This document shows positions 29,007 through 34,856 of a DNA stretch of 64,000 nucleotides, one piece after another. The stretch spans positions 23,874 through 87,873 of the forward strand of contig JAGAJN010000039.1 of NCBI GenBank assembly GCA_017828975.1, written 5' to 3'. A program made the position numbers and the translations under genes. Every line of letters begins with the position of its first letter. Positions within the stretch are counted from its first letter, which is position 1. Source of the stretch: Oscillospiraceae bacterium (GTDB taxonomy: Bacteria; Bacillota; Clostridia; Oscillospirales; Ruminococcaceae). The notes beneath the pieces are model-generated. The model was not told the DNA's origin and did no database searches. It worked only from the letters and a program-made list of their open reading frames with translations.

Positions 29007-29042
29007 AAAAAAATCTCCGCCCCCAAAAACGGGAACGGAGAG
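29007..29042 (-). terminator. Terminator of the third surface-protein paralog
   Basis: In the minus direction TCTCCG and CGGAGA close a GC-rich hairpin followed by a run of seven T. Confidence 0.75.
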
Positions 29043-29046
29043 AATA

Positions 29047-29724
29047 TCAATAGTATCTCTTGCGGTTTTTAAGTACGAGAACAACTACAACAGCAGCTAT
29101 CACCACAACTGCGATAACAACGATAAGTACGACATTGATGCCGCCCGATTCGCTTTCTTCCTCGCTGTCGGCAGCGGCGGTTTGCTCCGATTTGTCCTTA
29201 TCGTCGGATTTTTCCTCCTCAGCGGGAGCATCTCCGATACCATCGCCGTCAATATCGAAGGTAACTTTTTTCACCAGAAGCTCATTATCGGTATCGCCCA
29301 CATAAATCGAATCAATATCCGACAGATCGTCGTGTCCCACCGCTTCTATCATAGATGGATAATCGAAAACAGCAACGCCGTCCTTAATATCTGCGGGAGC
29401 GACTCTTGCCCATATGGATTCCACATCTTCGGTTTTCCGCCTGTACAGGATAAATTCCAGACCGACATATTCCTCGGGCGGTTCACTTTCAAGTACAAAT
29501 TCAACATAAAGCTTGGTGTTTTCGTTCATATCCGAAAGGGAGAAGGGTATGCTTTCTTCTCCGTTAAAGTTATAGGCAAAAGCCTGTCCCCAGCTTCTGG
29601 GAGATCTGCATTCGCCTTCAAACAGGCAGATGTCATCATCTGCGGCAAATGCTGTCACGGCGGACATTATGACTGCAAGCATTGTCACGGCTGCCGCAGA
29701 AAGCCATTTGGAAATTTTGCGCAT
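29047..29724 (-). CDS. Membrane-anchored secreted protein, tandem paralog 3
   Basis: A 225-residue surface protein. It has a signal peptide (MRKISKWLSAAAVTML, cleavage likely after AFA), an extracellular beta-rich domain of about 130 residues starting DDDICLFEGE, then an acidic Lys/Asp/Glu/Ser linker (about 160-190), and a single C-terminal helix ending KNRKRYY that anchors it. The domain ends with the stretch VTFDIDGDGIGD, which looks like a calcium-loop sequence. No LPXTG motif is present. It is the shortest and most divergent of three adjacent paralogs. Jelly-roll carbohydrate binding is a possibility from the pattern; I cannot assign a family. Confidence 0.82.
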   Translation of the reverse strand: MRKISKWLSAAAVTMLAVIMSAVTAFAADDDICLFEGECRSPRSWGQAFAYNFNGEESIPFSLSDMNENTKLYVEFVLESEPPEEYVGLEFILYRRKTEDVESIWARVAPADIKDGVAVFDYPSMIEAVGHDDLSDIDSIYVGDTDNELLVKKVTFDIDGDGIGDAPAEEEKSDDKDKSEQTAAADSEEESESGGINVVLIVVIAVVVIAAVVVVLVLKNRKRYY

Positions 29725-29786
29725 ATCAACAGCTCCTTTAATTATGACGTAATATTACTGCAAAAAGATAAAGCAGCTTTATTTTT

Positions 29787-29815
29787 ATTTTACATCAATT
29801 TTGCATAATTGTCAA
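29787..29815 (-). promoter_or_regulatory. Promoter of paralog 3
   Basis: On the minus strand TTGACA (29810-29815), 17-bp spacer, TAAAAT (29787-29792). The spacer (TGCAAAAT core) and the upstream block TCTTGTGAAAA match those of the promoter before paralog 1. Confidence 0.82.
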
Positions 29816-29886
29816 TAATGATATGGTGATTTTTCACAAGATTTTCATTTTTTATACTTCATGACAATGGGGAACATTGGCGCAAA

Positions 29887-29918
29887 AAATCCCCGCCCCC
29901 GAAAACGGAAGCGGAGAG
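29887..29918 (-). terminator. Terminator after paralog 2
   Basis: In the minus direction TCTCCGC pairs with GCGGGGA, followed by TTTTTT. It is closely similar to the terminator at 29007-29042, a further sign of duplication. Confidence 0.72.
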
Positions 29919-29922
29919 AACA

Positions 29923-30660
29923 TCAATAATATTTCTTGCGGTTCTTCAGAACAAGAACGACTACAACAGCCGCTATGACCACAACTGCGATAACAACGAT
30001 AAGCACGACATTGATGCCGCCAGAGCTGCTTTCTTCCTCGTTCTCCTCGGCTTTGTCCTTGTCGTCAGCCTTTTGGGAAGTGGTTTCCTCTTCCTTGTCA
30101 TCATCAGGAGCAGAGGTTTCCTCTGCTTTGTCCTCGCTTTTGATTTCGGGAATTTCTACTGTGTCGCCGTTGATACCGTCGCCGTTGATGTCGAATACGA
30201 CCTTTGTTACCTTAAGTACAGCACCCGTGTCGCCGACATATATCTGGTCAACGGTGGAGAGATCGTCGGAGCCGTATGTATCGACCATGGAAGCGTAATC
30301 GAAGGCCGCCACACCGTCTGTGATGTCTGTGGGCGGCGTCTGTGCCCATATCTGGTCGCCGCCTTCCTTTTCCCATTTCTGGAGGATAAAGGTAAGTCCC
30401 TGAGTATTTGCAGCAGGCGTGCCTTCCAGTTCAAAATCCACATACACCTTGCTGCTTTCGTTCAGCATAAGGATAAGCTGAGCGTATTTTTCGTCTGAAC
30501 GGATATTGAGGTTATAAGCCTGTCCCCAGCTTCCGTTTGATTTGCCCTCGCCCTCAAACAGGCAGATGTCATCGTCTGCTGCGGCTGCGGTCACTGCGGA
30601 CATTATGACTGCCAGAAGCATCACGGCTGCCGCAGAAAGCCATTTGGAAAATTTTCTCAT
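29923..30660 (-). CDS. Membrane-anchored secreted protein, tandem paralog 2
   Basis: A 245-residue paralog with the same plan: signal peptide MRKFSKWLSAAAVMLL, extracellular domain beginning DDDICLFEGEGKSNGSWGQAY, landmarks VYVDFELEGTP, LTFILQKWEK, VDQIYVGDTGAVL and VFDINGDGINGD, an acidic linker of about 50 residues, and a C-terminal membrane helix ending KNRKKYY. It lies 58 bases after paralog 1 and is probably co-transcribed with it. The function is unknown. Confidence 0.82.
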   Translation of the reverse strand: MRKFSKWLSAAAVMLLAVIMSAVTAAAADDDICLFEGEGKSNGSWGQAYNLNIRSDEKYAQLILMLNESSKVYVDFELEGTPAANTQGLTFILQKWEKEGGDQIWAQTPPTDITDGVAAFDYASMVDTYGSDDLSTVDQIYVGDTGAVLKVTKVVFDINGDGINGDTVEIPEIKSEDKAEETSAPDDDKEEETTSQKADDKDKAEENEEESSSGGINVVLIVVIAVVVIAAVVVVLVLKNRKKYY

Positions 30661-30718
30661 GTTAAAAACTCCTTTAATTATAATATTTAGGGAGAGATAC
30701 CCTGATCATGAAACAACA

Positions 30719-31519
30719 TCAGTAATATTTCTTACGTGTCCTGTCTATGATAACAATTATAACAGCTGCAACAAATGTAACGGAAATGATAACGATAACT
30801 ACGACTGCTTCTGTGGTGAGCGAGCCGTTTTTTTCTTCGCTGACGGCGGTGGTTTCTTCGGTCTGCTCGGAAGCTTTGGGAGTTGCGGACTCCTCGGTGA
30901 TTTTTTCGTCGGCGGCTGCTGTGGTTTCCTCAGGCTTGTCGTCAAGGTCAGCTGCGGAGGTTTCCTCTGCTGTGGTTTCCGGCGGGGCTAAGACTGCGCC
31001 CACTTCGGGGACATCTGCGGTATCACCGTTGATGCCGTCGCCGTATATGTCGAATACCACTCTTGTCACCTTGATAACAGCATGTGTATCGCCGATATAT
31101 ATCTGGTCAACGCCGGAAAGATCATCGCTGCCGAAGGTTTTCACAAGTGAAGCATAATCAAATGTGGCAACGCCGTCCGTTACATCTATGGGAGGTGTCT
31201 GCGCCCAGACAGAATCTCCCCCTTGCTTTTCCCATTTCTGGAGGATAAATTCAATGCCCTGAGTGTTCGGCGAAGGTGTGCCTTCAAGGCTGAAATCCAC
31301 ATATATCTTGCTGTTTTCATTAAGCATCGTCATAAGCTGAGCGTATTTGTCATTTGCACGGATATTGAGGGAATACGCCTGTCCCCATTTTCCGTTTGAT
31401 CTGCCCTCGCCCTCAAACAGGCATATGTCATCGTCTGCTGCGGCTGCGGTCACTGCGGACATTATGAATGCCGTAATTATGGCAGCTGCCGCAGAAAACC
31501 ATTTCGATATCTTTCTCAT
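30719..31519 (-). CDS. Membrane-anchored secreted protein, tandem paralog 1
   Basis: A 266-residue protein, first in the array. The signal peptide MRKISKWFSAAAAII is followed by the same extracellular domain (DDDICLFEGEGRSNGKWGQAYSL, IYVDFSLEGTPSPN, IEFILQKWEKQGG, VDQIYIGDTHAVI, VFDIYGDGINGD). The linker is longer and Thr/Glu/Ala-rich, probably extended and glycosylatable. The last helix ends DRTRKKYY. AAGGAG precedes the ATG. The ABC operon and an EAL protein are its neighbours but nothing shows a functional link. Confidence 0.82.
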   Translation of the reverse strand: MRKISKWFSAAAAIITAFIMSAVTAAAADDDICLFEGEGRSNGKWGQAYSLNIRANDKYAQLMTMLNENSKIYVDFSLEGTPSPNTQGIEFILQKWEKQGGDSVWAQTPPIDVTDGVATFDYASLVKTFGSDDLSGVDQIYIGDTHAVIKVTRVVFDIYGDGINGDTADVPEVGAVLAPPETTAEETSAADLDDKPEETTAAADEKITEESATPKASEQTEETTAVSEEKNGSLTTEAVVVIVIISVTFVAAVIIVIIDRTRKKYY

Positions 31520-31670: not shown

Positions 31671-31706
31671 ATAGGTGTCCTCCCGTAAAATTGGGGGAAC
31701 ACCTAT
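31671..31706. terminator. Hairpin after the EAL gene
   Basis: ATAGGTGTCCTCCC pairs with GGGGGAACACCTAT with a short loop. The T-run is weak on the minus strand, so the terminator call is tentative. Confidence 0.55.
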
Positions 31707-31726: not shown

Positions 31727-34700
31727 TCAGACAATTTTTGCATCGTCGGGAAGATAAACGCACAGCTCCTCCAGACCCTCGTCATTTTCGGCAACATAGC
31801 TGTAAGTGCCCTTGGAGGTCTTTATCTCCTTGTTGAACGGACCGTTCCATTTTATCTTCTGCATTTTAAGGCTGCTGCCAAACGGATCCACCGCATCAAT
31901 ATCATCAATGGTATTGCTGACGATATTTCCGCCGAAAATAACGGTTTTTCCGTTTGCGACGCCTGCCGCTTTTCCGTTTGCAGAAAGGATAAACAGGTTG
32001 ACATATCCGCTTTCGATGGTAAGCGTGCCCTCGCCCGAGCTGTCGCCTAGGCCGTAAAGCATACCGCCCTCGCCATGGACGCTGACAGAACCGGAATGTA
32101 TGATCGTTTTAAGGTCGGCACCAACTCCGCCGATGCCCGTGGCTTCCTTAGATTTGACATCGATCGCCACATTGCCCGAATTGATCTGGACAGTACCCGT
32201 ACTTCCGCTATGCGCACCAACGCAGGAGCAGCTGTCGCCCGAGCATACCACATGCAGGTCGGCGCAGCTTTCCAGGCTGATATTTCCCTTCATAACGCCA
32301 AGACCTACCGCAGTTGCGCCGCAGGATTCGATGTCCAGATTTCCCTTGATAAGGGAGATGATACCGTTTCCCTTGTAGAAGCCCATTCCGACGGTTTTTT
32401 CGCCTGTGGTCCTGATTTTCACATTGCCCTGTACCAGCTTTATCATCGATTCGTCAGCCACACCGCCGCCGATACCGACGCTGGCATCGCAGTTTGCAGA
32501 AACGTTAAGAACTCCCGTCATATTCATGACGATCTCGCCGAAGTCCTCCGAAGAACCGCCGCCGATACAAGCCTTGCCGTTTATGTCACATTCCATTTCC
32601 AGCTCGCCGTCGCCGATAAGCAGCAGCCTTGCTCCCTTGGGAACTCTGATGCCCTCGCCCTTGATATGGTTTTTGCCCGTGACACCGATATTTGCCACAG
32701 CGCCCTCCTCCACCATAACAGCGGGTCTGTCCAGTCCCTCGATGAAAATATTATCAAAGATAATGTCGCAGTTAAGCCCCTTGGGAATTGTGATGCTGAT
32801 GGGGACGCAGCGGCTGCTCTTGCTTGAGATAGTCGCCCTTCTGCCTGTGATGAGAATGTCGGTAAAGCCCGAAAGAGCGGTCTTTGTGCAGTCAACGGTT
32901 TCATTGTCCGCAACCTCGTAGACCTTTCTTTCTCCTCTTTTTTTCCTGAGATTTATCTCTGCGATAAGCTCCTTGACATCTGCGGAGATCTCACGGAGAA
33001 TAACCGCCTGGGGACGGCAGGTGAAGAAGCCCTGGATAAGGTCAACGTCCAGATAGATGACCGTTTCCAGCTCCTCGGCAGTTTCGATGCCCTCGGCAAT
33101 GACCTTGATGCCGTGCTTTGAAGCGAAGTTTATCATATTGGAAACGAGGTGCTGCTTCTGGGCGTTGGAGTCGATGCCCGTCAGGAGTGAACGGTCGATC
33201 TTTATGTAGTTAGGCTGGGATTTCAGCAGGTTTGACTCGTTTGAATAGCCCGTGCCGTAATCGTCCAGCGCAATAAGGGACTTGTGGGAAACAAAGCGTT
33301 CTCTCAGCTTTTCGATGGTTTTCAGGGACATTTCGCTGCTTTCGGTTATCTCGATAACGAGGTAGTCGAACAGGGCAACGTAATTTTCCAGCAGATAGTT
33401 GTAGTCGTTATCGGAAAGACAGCAGCTGGGGATAGAGTTCAGGAACACCTTTCTGTCCTTGAAGAGGTCCTGATTTTCGTAGACCTTGGTGATGGTGTTG
33501 AAGAAGGTCAGACGCTCGATCTCGTCAAGCATATTCTGCTCCTGCGCCAGCGTCAGCACATCAAACGGCGTAAATCTCACGCCCTCGATAGTTCTGGGGC
33601 GCATAAGGGATTCATAGCCGTGTATCTCGCCTGTGCGTGCATCAACGATAGGCTGGAACCAGTAATCGATCTCGTTTCCCGAAATAAGGTCGTCGAATAC
33701 CTGAATTCGGCGGTAATCCTCCTGCCTTTTTTCAAAGGAAACGGGGTTGAATTTCTGTGGGATAGAGGAGCCTGCACTTTCCGCTTCAAATGCGGCAAAG
33801 TCGGCGGCGGACAGTATGGAATTCAGCTCCGAAGCCTGTTCGGGGCATAGGCAGTAGCCGCAGTAGGTGTAGACGGGCAGCTTCAGCTCGTCGGAGCATT
33901 GAGCGGCATTTTTGTTGACTCTTGAGCATATCTCCGACACCATATTCTTGACAGAATCGTGGTCGGGGCCGTTTATGAGCATAACGAACTCGTTGCTGTT
34001 TCGTATTCCTGCGACTATCTCGCTGGAAACGAAGCTTTTCAGGCAGTCGGAGATGGAGATTAGCACCCTTTCTGCGGCTGCATAGTCGAGTACGGAGGTA
34101 ATTCTTTCCAGACCGTTTATGTGGAACTGAACCACGCAGCAGCCCAGACCCTTTGCGGTCACGGCGGCAAGCGCTTCGGTAAATGCCTCATAGCTCAGAA
34201 GCTTTGTTACGGAGTCATAGCTGCGCAGGTCACGTATCATATCCCGTGAATGGACCTTGTCGGTAGCGTCGGTAACTATTGTATAGCTGCAATAGCCCGC
34301 ATCAAAGGTGACAACGCTGTACCATCTTTCGCTGTTGAGGGGAGAGCGGTAAACGTTCCGGAACTCGTCCGAGGGGTCGGCGGTAAGGAGGGAAAGCAGC
34401 TTCACGTATCTGTCCCTCTCGGTATATACCATTTTGCCCGAAGCGTTTTCGGGGCTGCGGGTGATGTTTGCAATATCGCAGAATTCCTCGGGAACGACAG
34501 CGGTGTCCGTCGAGGCGTTGAACACCAGATACCTCAGGTCGGGGATATTCTCTTCAAGTGCTGCGATCAGCTTATTTGCCTGCTTTATAGCACCTATCTG
34601 CTTAAAAATGGGAATAAGGAGCAGCAGAAACACCGCTGCTGCGCCGATAAGTATAAGCTTTGCGCAGCCGTCGGCAAAAAATGCCCCAATAAGGCAAGTC

Positions 34701-34777
34701 ACCGCAGCAGCCGGCTGGATACCGGTCAGCAGGAGAAGCGGTTTATAGTTCAACCCCAATTTATTTGAATCATTCAT
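31727..34777 (-). CDS. EAL-domain c-di-GMP phosphodiesterase fused to a beta-helix-like domain
   Basis: A 1016-residue protein. Two N-terminal membrane helices (about 13-34 and 38-57) leave the rest in the cytoplasm. A PAS-like region (65-175) and a degenerate GGDEF domain (185-340, signature replaced by NSNEF) precede an EAL domain (355-610). The EAL domain keeps the residues for metal binding and catalysis: E389 in GYESLMRP, the Asn in FLNSIP, VIEITES, DDYGTG, YIKIDRS and AEGIET, so it should hydrolyse c-di-GMP. Residues 620-1016 are a repetitive, Gly-rich domain with right-handed beta-helix character, like the Cthe_2159 carbohydrate-binding type. That domain appears cytoplasmic here, which is unexpected. 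Confidence 0.85.
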   Translation of the reverse strand: MNDSNKLGLNYKPLLLLTGIQPAAAVTCLIGAFFADGCAKLILIGAAAVFLLLLIPIFKQIGAIKQANKLIAALEENIPDLRYLVFNASTDTAVVPEEFCDIANITRSPENASGKMVYTERDRYVKLLSLLTADPSDEFRNVYRSPLNSERWYSVVTFDAGYCSYTIVTDATDKVHSRDMIRDLRSYDSVTKLLSYEAFTEALAAVTAKGLGCCVVQFHINGLERITSVLDYAAAERVLISISDCLKSFVSSEIVAGIRNSNEFVMLINGPDHDSVKNMVSEICSRVNKNAAQCSDELKLPVYTYCGYCLCPEQASELNSILSAADFAAFEAESAGSSIPQKFNPVSFEKRQEDYRRIQVFDDLISGNEIDYWFQPIVDARTGEIHGYESLMRPRTIEGVRFTPFDVLTLAQEQNMLDEIERLTFFNTITKVYENQDLFKDRKVFLNSIPSCCLSDNDYNYLLENYVALFDYLVIEITESSEMSLKTIEKLRERFVSHKSLIALDDYGTGYSNESNLLKSQPNYIKIDRSLLTGIDSNAQKQHLVSNMINFASKHGIKVIAEGIETAEELETVIYLDVDLIQGFFTCRPQAVILREISADVKELIAEINLRKKRGERKVYEVADNETVDCTKTALSGFTDILITGRRATISSKSSRCVPISITIPKGLNCDIIFDNIFIEGLDRPAVMVEEGAVANIGVTGKNHIKGEGIRVPKGARLLLIGDGELEMECDINGKACIGGGSSEDFGEIVMNMTGVLNVSANCDASVGIGGGVADESMIKLVQGNVKIRTTGEKTVGMGFYKGNGIISLIKGNLDIESCGATAVGLGVMKGNISLESCADLHVVCSGDSCSCVGAHSGSTGTVQINSGNVAIDVKSKEATGIGGVGADLKTIIHSGSVSVHGEGGMLYGLGDSSGEGTLTIESGYVNLFILSANGKAAGVANGKTVIFGGNIVSNTIDDIDAVDPFGSSLKMQKIKWNGPFNKEIKTSKGTYSYVAENDEGLEELCVYLPDDAKIV

Positions 34778-34827: not shown

Positions 34828-34856
34828 ATTATACAATGTTTTTGCCGTAAAGTCAA
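34828..34856 (-). promoter_or_regulatory. Promoter of the EAL gene
   Basis: On the minus strand TTGACT (34851-34856), 17-bp spacer, TATAAT (34828-34833). The remaining 158 bases to 35014 show nothing I can assign. Confidence 0.78.

Follow-up and report, generated by a model that had tools for sequence, protein, structure and literature searches.

The usual view of c-di-GMP turnover enzymes is that a conserved output is controlled by a sensor at the N-terminus that varies from protein to protein, and in proteins of the YkuI type an accessory domain, YkuI_C, sits C-terminal to EAL. A review of the sensory domains of c-di-GMP signaling covers the PBP clan together with the intracellular YkuI_C; the words “beta-helix” and “solenoid” are absent from it (PMC8846402). 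From the beta-helix side, cellulose and polygalacturonic acid are described as ligands of members of the Cthe_2159 family (PMC6712302). The window analyzed here, a stretch of 64,000 nucleotides from an Oscillospiraceae bacterium, encodes a protein whose EAL domain is followed by a predicted beta-solenoid. The features of this gene, in window coordinates, are as follows.

34828..34856, (-) strand: promoter-like site TTGACT-17-TATAAT, 5' of the EAL-beta-solenoid gene (consensus match 11/12, which by itself does not indicate function)
31727..34777, (-) strand: gene for the EAL-beta-solenoid protein, 1016 aa plus stop (ORF; orthologue at locus L048 92% identical over 1016 aa)
34604..34738, (-) strand: two TM helices with a short loop between them, residues 14-32 and 40-58 (hydropathy; AlphaFold2 helices 11-34 and 38-52)
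33767..34219, (-) strand: degenerate GGDEF domain, residues 187-337, with NSNEF (260-264) in the GGDEF place (Pfam, column counts)
33011..33694, (-) strand: EAL domain of the predicted phosphodiesterase, residues 362-589, with its catalytic residues (Pfam, column counts)
32939..32989, (-) strand: EAL C-terminal/linker helix, about residues 597-613 (AlphaFold2 helix 599-612; the paralogue L002 stops just past the equivalent place)
31898..32923, (-) strand: predicted cytosolic beta-solenoid, about residues 619-960, with IG(G/S)-anchored coils of 27-31 residues (AlphaFold2, repeat analysis)
31730..31873, (-) strand: C-terminal beta cap, about residues 969-1016, found in the subgroup of about 1010 aa and absent from shorter-tailed members (AlphaFold2, alignment, tail lengths)
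31671..31706, (-) strand: inverted repeat directly 3' of the stop, a possible terminator (by eye; the scan did not list it)

Pfam places EAL at residues 362-589 with an E-value of 5.9e-50 (170.3 bits against a cut-off of 31.3), and E389, N447, E476, D505, D506, K526, E562 and Q582, which we take to be the metal-binding and catalytic residues of EAL, are conserved and all present (8/8). On both counts the sequence-only reading, which had called the EAL domain catalytically intact, is borne out. Ahead of it, the GGDEF match is weak (residues 187-337, E 3.8e-9), and the GG[DE]EF signature of an active diguanylate cyclase is absent, NSNEF being found at 260-264 instead. Behind it, residues from about 610 to 1016 have no credible Pfam coverage: this part of the protein has no Pfam match at E up to 1, alignment A1, whose nine rows are C-terminal sequences including that of the window protein, yields a best Pfam match of E 0.075 in a single member, and NCBIfam returned EAL and GGDEF families only for the window protein. 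One protein with the solenoid domain was found in the genome that contains the window.

The distribution of this architecture was surveyed with two solenoid profiles, A1 (nine rows) and A4 (14 rows). In the loci collected up to that comparison, ORFs longer than 300 aa that match A4 at E 1e-20 number 105, of which 79 are distinct rows, and in 76 of the 79 the solenoid lies directly behind an intact EAL domain; E389 and D505 are kept in the same proportion (76/79 aligned rows), while the GGDEF-signature columns are variable over the 79 and fall in a gap in 21. The three rows without EAL residues are L119 and L126, which are pieces of one secreted repeat ORF of 2477 aa, and L040, which is cut by a contig end. 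Counted by genome (at least, since up to four candidates were scored in each), A1 matches at E 1e-5 at least 99/396 genomes of the family, in 25 of 126 genera with weak matches included; five of the 99 match only weakly (7.9e-6 to 2.8e-17), leaving at least 94/396 with a strong match. A4 matches at least 18/391 genomes of the class, five of them only weakly (3e-6 to 1e-16), and the remaining 13 or more include four from the same family, eight from family f66 and one from family f51. In the phylum sample at least 3/398 genomes match, none of them outside the class. Within the named genome collection, 13 of 58 loci (L048-L060; Ruminococcus, Oscillospiraceae, Lachnospiraceae, Lachnoclostridium and Clostridia, nearly all MAGs) span the solenoid and the other loci match the EAL end only; a tblastn search of 72,556 plasmid records gave no match to the solenoid protein. 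That an assembly chimera or a sequencing error merged two genes, a possibility raised when the fusion was first noticed, deserves virtually no credence: no point in its support was found, many genomes contribute to the 76 distinct rows that carry the same fusion, and the equivalent fusion in the sister species (L048) comes from a separate assembly, which together rule it out. The sequence-only reading also knew of no described protein of this type. We likewise recognized no description of an EAL/beta-helix protein in the open-access literature (most subscription papers lay outside the search), but the fusion is not singular, as it forms a conserved family of 76 rows.

What precedes the EAL-solenoid unit varies widely. 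Among 42 members run against Pfam, EAL was found in all 42, GGDEF in 20 and Peripla_BP_3 in 17, and the N-terminal types comprise the TM hairpin, GGDEF, a LacI-type domain or almost nothing; across the 76 rows, the stretch ahead of EAL is just 91-122 aa long in 11 and exceeds 500 aa in 17, many loci including only part of the N-terminus. In several members (L059, L131, L153, L161 and others) a LacI-type binding domain without TM is fused to the EAL-solenoid, and by sequence these are apparently cytosolic sugar-type sensors for c-di-GMP. The solenoid core (V712-G911) measures 197-203 aa in 73 of the 76 rows, the remaining three having 159, 172 and 225. Because the pairing of EAL with the solenoid and the length of its core are constant while the N-termini vary, we infer that the solenoid belongs to the output unit, most likely as a docking or regulatory arm. 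Specifically, we favor a c-di-GMP phosphodiesterase tethered to the membrane, in which EAL forms one unit with a cytosolic solenoid acting as its constant docking or regulatory arm, and give this preferred reading a probability of roughly 0.45. Median pairwise identity is 45.6% for EAL vs 26.2% for the solenoid (2850 non-independent pairs; Spearman 0.61), and this far lower conservation of the solenoid would also fit weak constraint or species-specific ligands.

A quick IQ-TREE analysis of 93 EAL rows places the 76 solenoid rows in a single group of 78 (SH-aLRT 93, which is under the starred level). The tree shows 3 label changes vs a mean of 15.8 after shuffling, with 0/500 shuffles as low, and its starred branches force at least two gains or losses of the solenoid. 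These figures are to be read with the sampling in mind, as solenoid rows were gathered via the solenoid and the others came from a search with L002 of 80 genomes plus L003-L008, five further EAL matches in the window's own genome were left out, and several outgroup rows are long-branched. Nested in the group are two rows without a solenoid, L002 (from the window's own genome) and L198, whose chains end 5 and 8 residues, respectively, past the end of the EAL profile, where other rows go on; these two rows and the forced gains or losses count against the preferred reading. It is here that a structural or allosteric element only, without partner or ligand, has to be considered, that is, a solenoid that steadies the dimer of EAL domains or covers their active site while passing on the signal from the N-terminus. 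Its position directly after the EAL C-terminal helix, its near-fixed length and its retention in 76/78 rows of the EAL group (rows partly collected via the solenoid) speak for such an element, which we nonetheless hold to be unlikely, if worth weighing, as some 350 residues are large for this role and L002 and L198 do without them, L002 with its visible EAL signature residues retained.

The sequence-only reading had described the C-terminal part as beta-helix-like, and structure prediction agrees. For residues 594-1016, AlphaFold2 supplied with 14 sequences of the family returned a mostly beta model at a mean pLDDT of 92.2 and a pTM of 0.89, laid out as an N-terminal helix, one more short helix, beta structure throughout the rest and a small terminal beta region. 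The repeat is evident in the alignment as well, with an autocorrelation peak at lag 28 (0.33 for Gly columns, 0.27 for hydrophobic columns) and with coils of 27-31 residues each when set out on their IG(G/S) anchors. For the full-length protein the mean pLDDT is 80.9 and the pTM 0.54, a value at which the arrangement of domains is not readable from the model, which is a weakness of both the preferred and the purely structural reading. Foldseek against the PDB gave 106 matches, none at E <=0.001 (best E 0.041); the 50 that were listed are mainly beta-helix proteins with TM-scores of at most 0.33, among them autotransporter passengers, GH28, tailspikes and a beta-helix from a capybara gut metagenome. 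The match to the Cthe_2159 structure 4phb has an E of 4.7 and a TM-score by target of 0.23. The viral model library gave nothing at E <=0.001, and by sequence the PDB gave no match with the single domain and one irrelevant match (E 0.28) with the profile. As such, the beta-solenoid fold is well predicted by the model, whereas any likeness of its geometry to that of solved helices would be tentative. Bactofilins have a beta-helix fold. They belong to the cytoskeleton and polymerize into filaments (PMC12448750), and solenoids stacked end to end could similarly concentrate the enzyme in filaments or patches. We consider this polymerizing scaffold very improbable: no bactofilin model appears among the Pfam matches at E up to 1, and the short helix that AlphaFold2 places before the first coils and the beta region after the last make the ends of the solenoid look capped.

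The closest relatives of the solenoid are secreted proteins. Aligned by hhalign with A7, a profile of ten secreted GIGGG-repeat domains from nine proteins, A4 reaches a probability of 99.0 and a score of 137, compared with probabilities of 0.3-42.3 and scores of 19-39 for one reversed and five block-shuffled controls; the five A7 domains found via PF18889, and not via the solenoid profile, give 98.7 and 122. With A8, a profile of twelve Cthe_2159 domains, the probability is 63.9 and the score 42, six controls scoring 15-20 at probabilities below 1. The secreted GIGGG set matches Cthe_2159 at a probability of 96.3 (a comparison run without control), and at L123 a weak A4 match (E 3e-6) overlaps a PF14262 domain. 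Neither the window protein nor any of the nine A1 rows attains the gathering score of PF14262, and the window protein and the A1 rows also fall short of that of PF18889. These profile comparisons point firmly to an ancestry shared with the secreted GIGGG repeats of the PF18889 type and weakly to Cthe_2159 as a distant cousin. The strong GIGGG and weak Cthe_2159 matches mean that the repeats, initially likened to those of Cthe_2159, were assigned to the right beta-helix superfamily under too narrow a name, their nearer kin being the secreted GIGGG proteins; plain membership in Cthe_2159 is rejected by the missing PF14262 match, and the family is kept as a distant relation. PF14262 has no match in the window's own genome and matches 50 of 100 sampled genomes of the family. 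That genome does carry, near the end of contig C5 (L181:141-905, (-) strand), an ORF of 255 aa with four PF18889 matches spaced 29-30 residues apart, which we regard as an extracellular-type cousin of the EAL-linked solenoid.

The cytoplasmic placement of the domain that was proposed at the outset holds up. The two N-terminal TM helices of the window protein are joined by a very short loop, so the remainder of the chain should be cytosolic, and a hydropathy scan from the first Met on finds no TM segment in 28 of the 76 members (the 11 shortest and the 17 longest N-termini). By the same evidence, no export signal or surface location of the kind seen in secreted polysaccharide binders was found. 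Cys, moreover, makes up 2.7% of the EAL-attached domain (5-18 in each of the 76), compared with 0.7% in the ten GIGGG domains and 0.8% in the twelve of Cthe_2159 (p 2e-12 by Mann-Whitney, with rows that are related), and we read the high content as an indirect hint that the compartment is reducing. The solenoid is apparently cytosolic. A redox or metal sensor based on Cys was considered and ruled out, since the Cys columns swap with G, A, S, T or V without a fixed site, and at the one column that reaches 78% the window protein has Gly.

Descent from secreted surface repeats raises the question of a ligand. To our knowledge, none is known for the PF18889-type relatives. The solenoid might signal to EAL the presence of an internal glycan or polymer, for instance an envelope-glycan intermediate or glycogen, which would accord with its strong homology to secreted surface repeats, with the weaker one to Cthe_2159, for members of which binding of cellulose and polygalacturonic acid is described (PMC6712302), and with the three CBM65 proteins encoded beside the gene. 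Within the coils, G and I account for most of the columns with at least 70% conservation, the others being GIRVP, N703, S777 and a few Cys or Ser columns, and the only aromatic columns at that level, Y620 and F/Y638, both lie ahead of the coils. A largely structural conservation of this kind, in which neither aromatic nor acidic residues form a conserved line along the coils, speaks against a common glycan ligand, and the CBM65 genes recur only in L048 among the 12 loci compared; we therefore find a glycan sensor doubtful. A bolder version, that a surface polysaccharide-binding solenoid moved to the cytosol, was fixed there as the regulatory half of a phosphodiesterase and reads internal polymer (glycogen or envelope-glycan intermediates), coupling it to c-di-GMP-controlled surface genes, would be a fairly long shot.

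The neighborhood of the gene offers observations of its own. Directly downstream, at 29047-31519 on the (-) strand, lie three tandem paralogues, each a CBM65 match (E 5e-18 to 8e-20) with, by eye, a signal-peptide-like start and a C-terminal TM anchor; for the first of them, the PDB contains matching chains of the endoglucanase Cel5A. Two of these genes are followed by terminator-like hairpins (29014-29041 and 29890-29917, (-) strand) that closely resemble each other, perhaps the trace of a duplication. Promoter-like sites of 11/12 precede the first and third genes, none of such quality being listed before the second. In the sister species (L048) at least two of the CBM65 genes have relatives, and none were seen at the other 11 loci compared. 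An operon of the EAL gene with the CBM65 genes is unlikely, given its own promoter-like site, those before the first and third CBM65 genes, the inverted repeat after the EAL gene and a neighborhood common only to L048. No partner of the solenoid was found, which, like the sharing of this neighborhood by L048 only among the 12 loci (several with short flanks), weighs against the preferred reading.

Possible outputs were found elsewhere in the genome. One c-di-GMP-I riboswitch (59.1 bits; 150 scored of 293 candidates) was found on contig C36 (L165:5760-5859, (-) strand), directly before an ORF of 1265 aa (L165 1954-5751, (-) strand) that contains a FecR domain as well as what look by eye like repeats and a Thr-rich stalk, and which judged by these features is likely a c-di-GMP-controlled surface protein. 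One PilZ protein of 218 aa was found on contig C12 (L166:4286-4942, (-) strand). Under the preferred reading of a tethered phosphodiesterase with a docking or regulatory arm, the N-terminal modules (the TM hairpin, the degenerate GGDEF and a region whose secondary structure resembles PAS) would set the activity of EAL, and the solenoid arm would take the enzyme to a cytoplasmic partner or keep its dimer in a given activity state. By lowering c-di-GMP, the enzyme could in turn influence outputs, for instance the riboswitch-led surface-type protein and the PilZ protein.

EAL with a C-terminal beta-solenoid appears to constitute a new domain architecture. Here the output EAL itself bears a large conserved C-terminal domain, modeled by neither Pfam nor NCBIfam, that was retained while the N-termini changed. 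The family thus offers a test case in Clostridia for local c-di-GMP signaling, or for the cytosolic use of a fold otherwise found on secreted surface proteins, with the solenoid-less paralogue L002 of the same genome as a natural control. Among known systems, the secreted GIGGG proteins (PF18889, Beta_helix_3; L120, L121, L183, L187) share with the EAL-linked solenoids the motif RVP...L.I.G.G.L and the IGG coil motifs; several of them have signal-peptide-like N-termini, differing repeat numbers (by eye) and low Cys, whereas the EAL-linked solenoids are of near-fixed length and apparently cytosolic. The likeness to Cthe_2159 (PF14262; 4phb) is a profile match above controls but weak, and the window domain differs in having no PF14262 match and a Foldseek E of 4.7 to 4phb. 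YkuI-type EAL proteins likewise carry an intracellular accessory domain on an EAL enzyme, as the review of sensory domains describes (PMC8846402), but YkuI_C has a PAS/CACHE-like fold, whereas the window protein has a beta-solenoid and no YkuI_C match. Closest in the enzyme itself are the GGDEF-EAL phosphodiesterases, including the LacI/PBP-sensor type to which L002 belongs, which also combine catalytic EAL residues with a degenerate or absent GGDEF and variable N-terminal modules. L002 and the window protein fall in the same EAL group, but L002 stops a few residues past the C-terminal helix of EAL, whereas the window protein continues for about 400 further residues of beta-solenoid.
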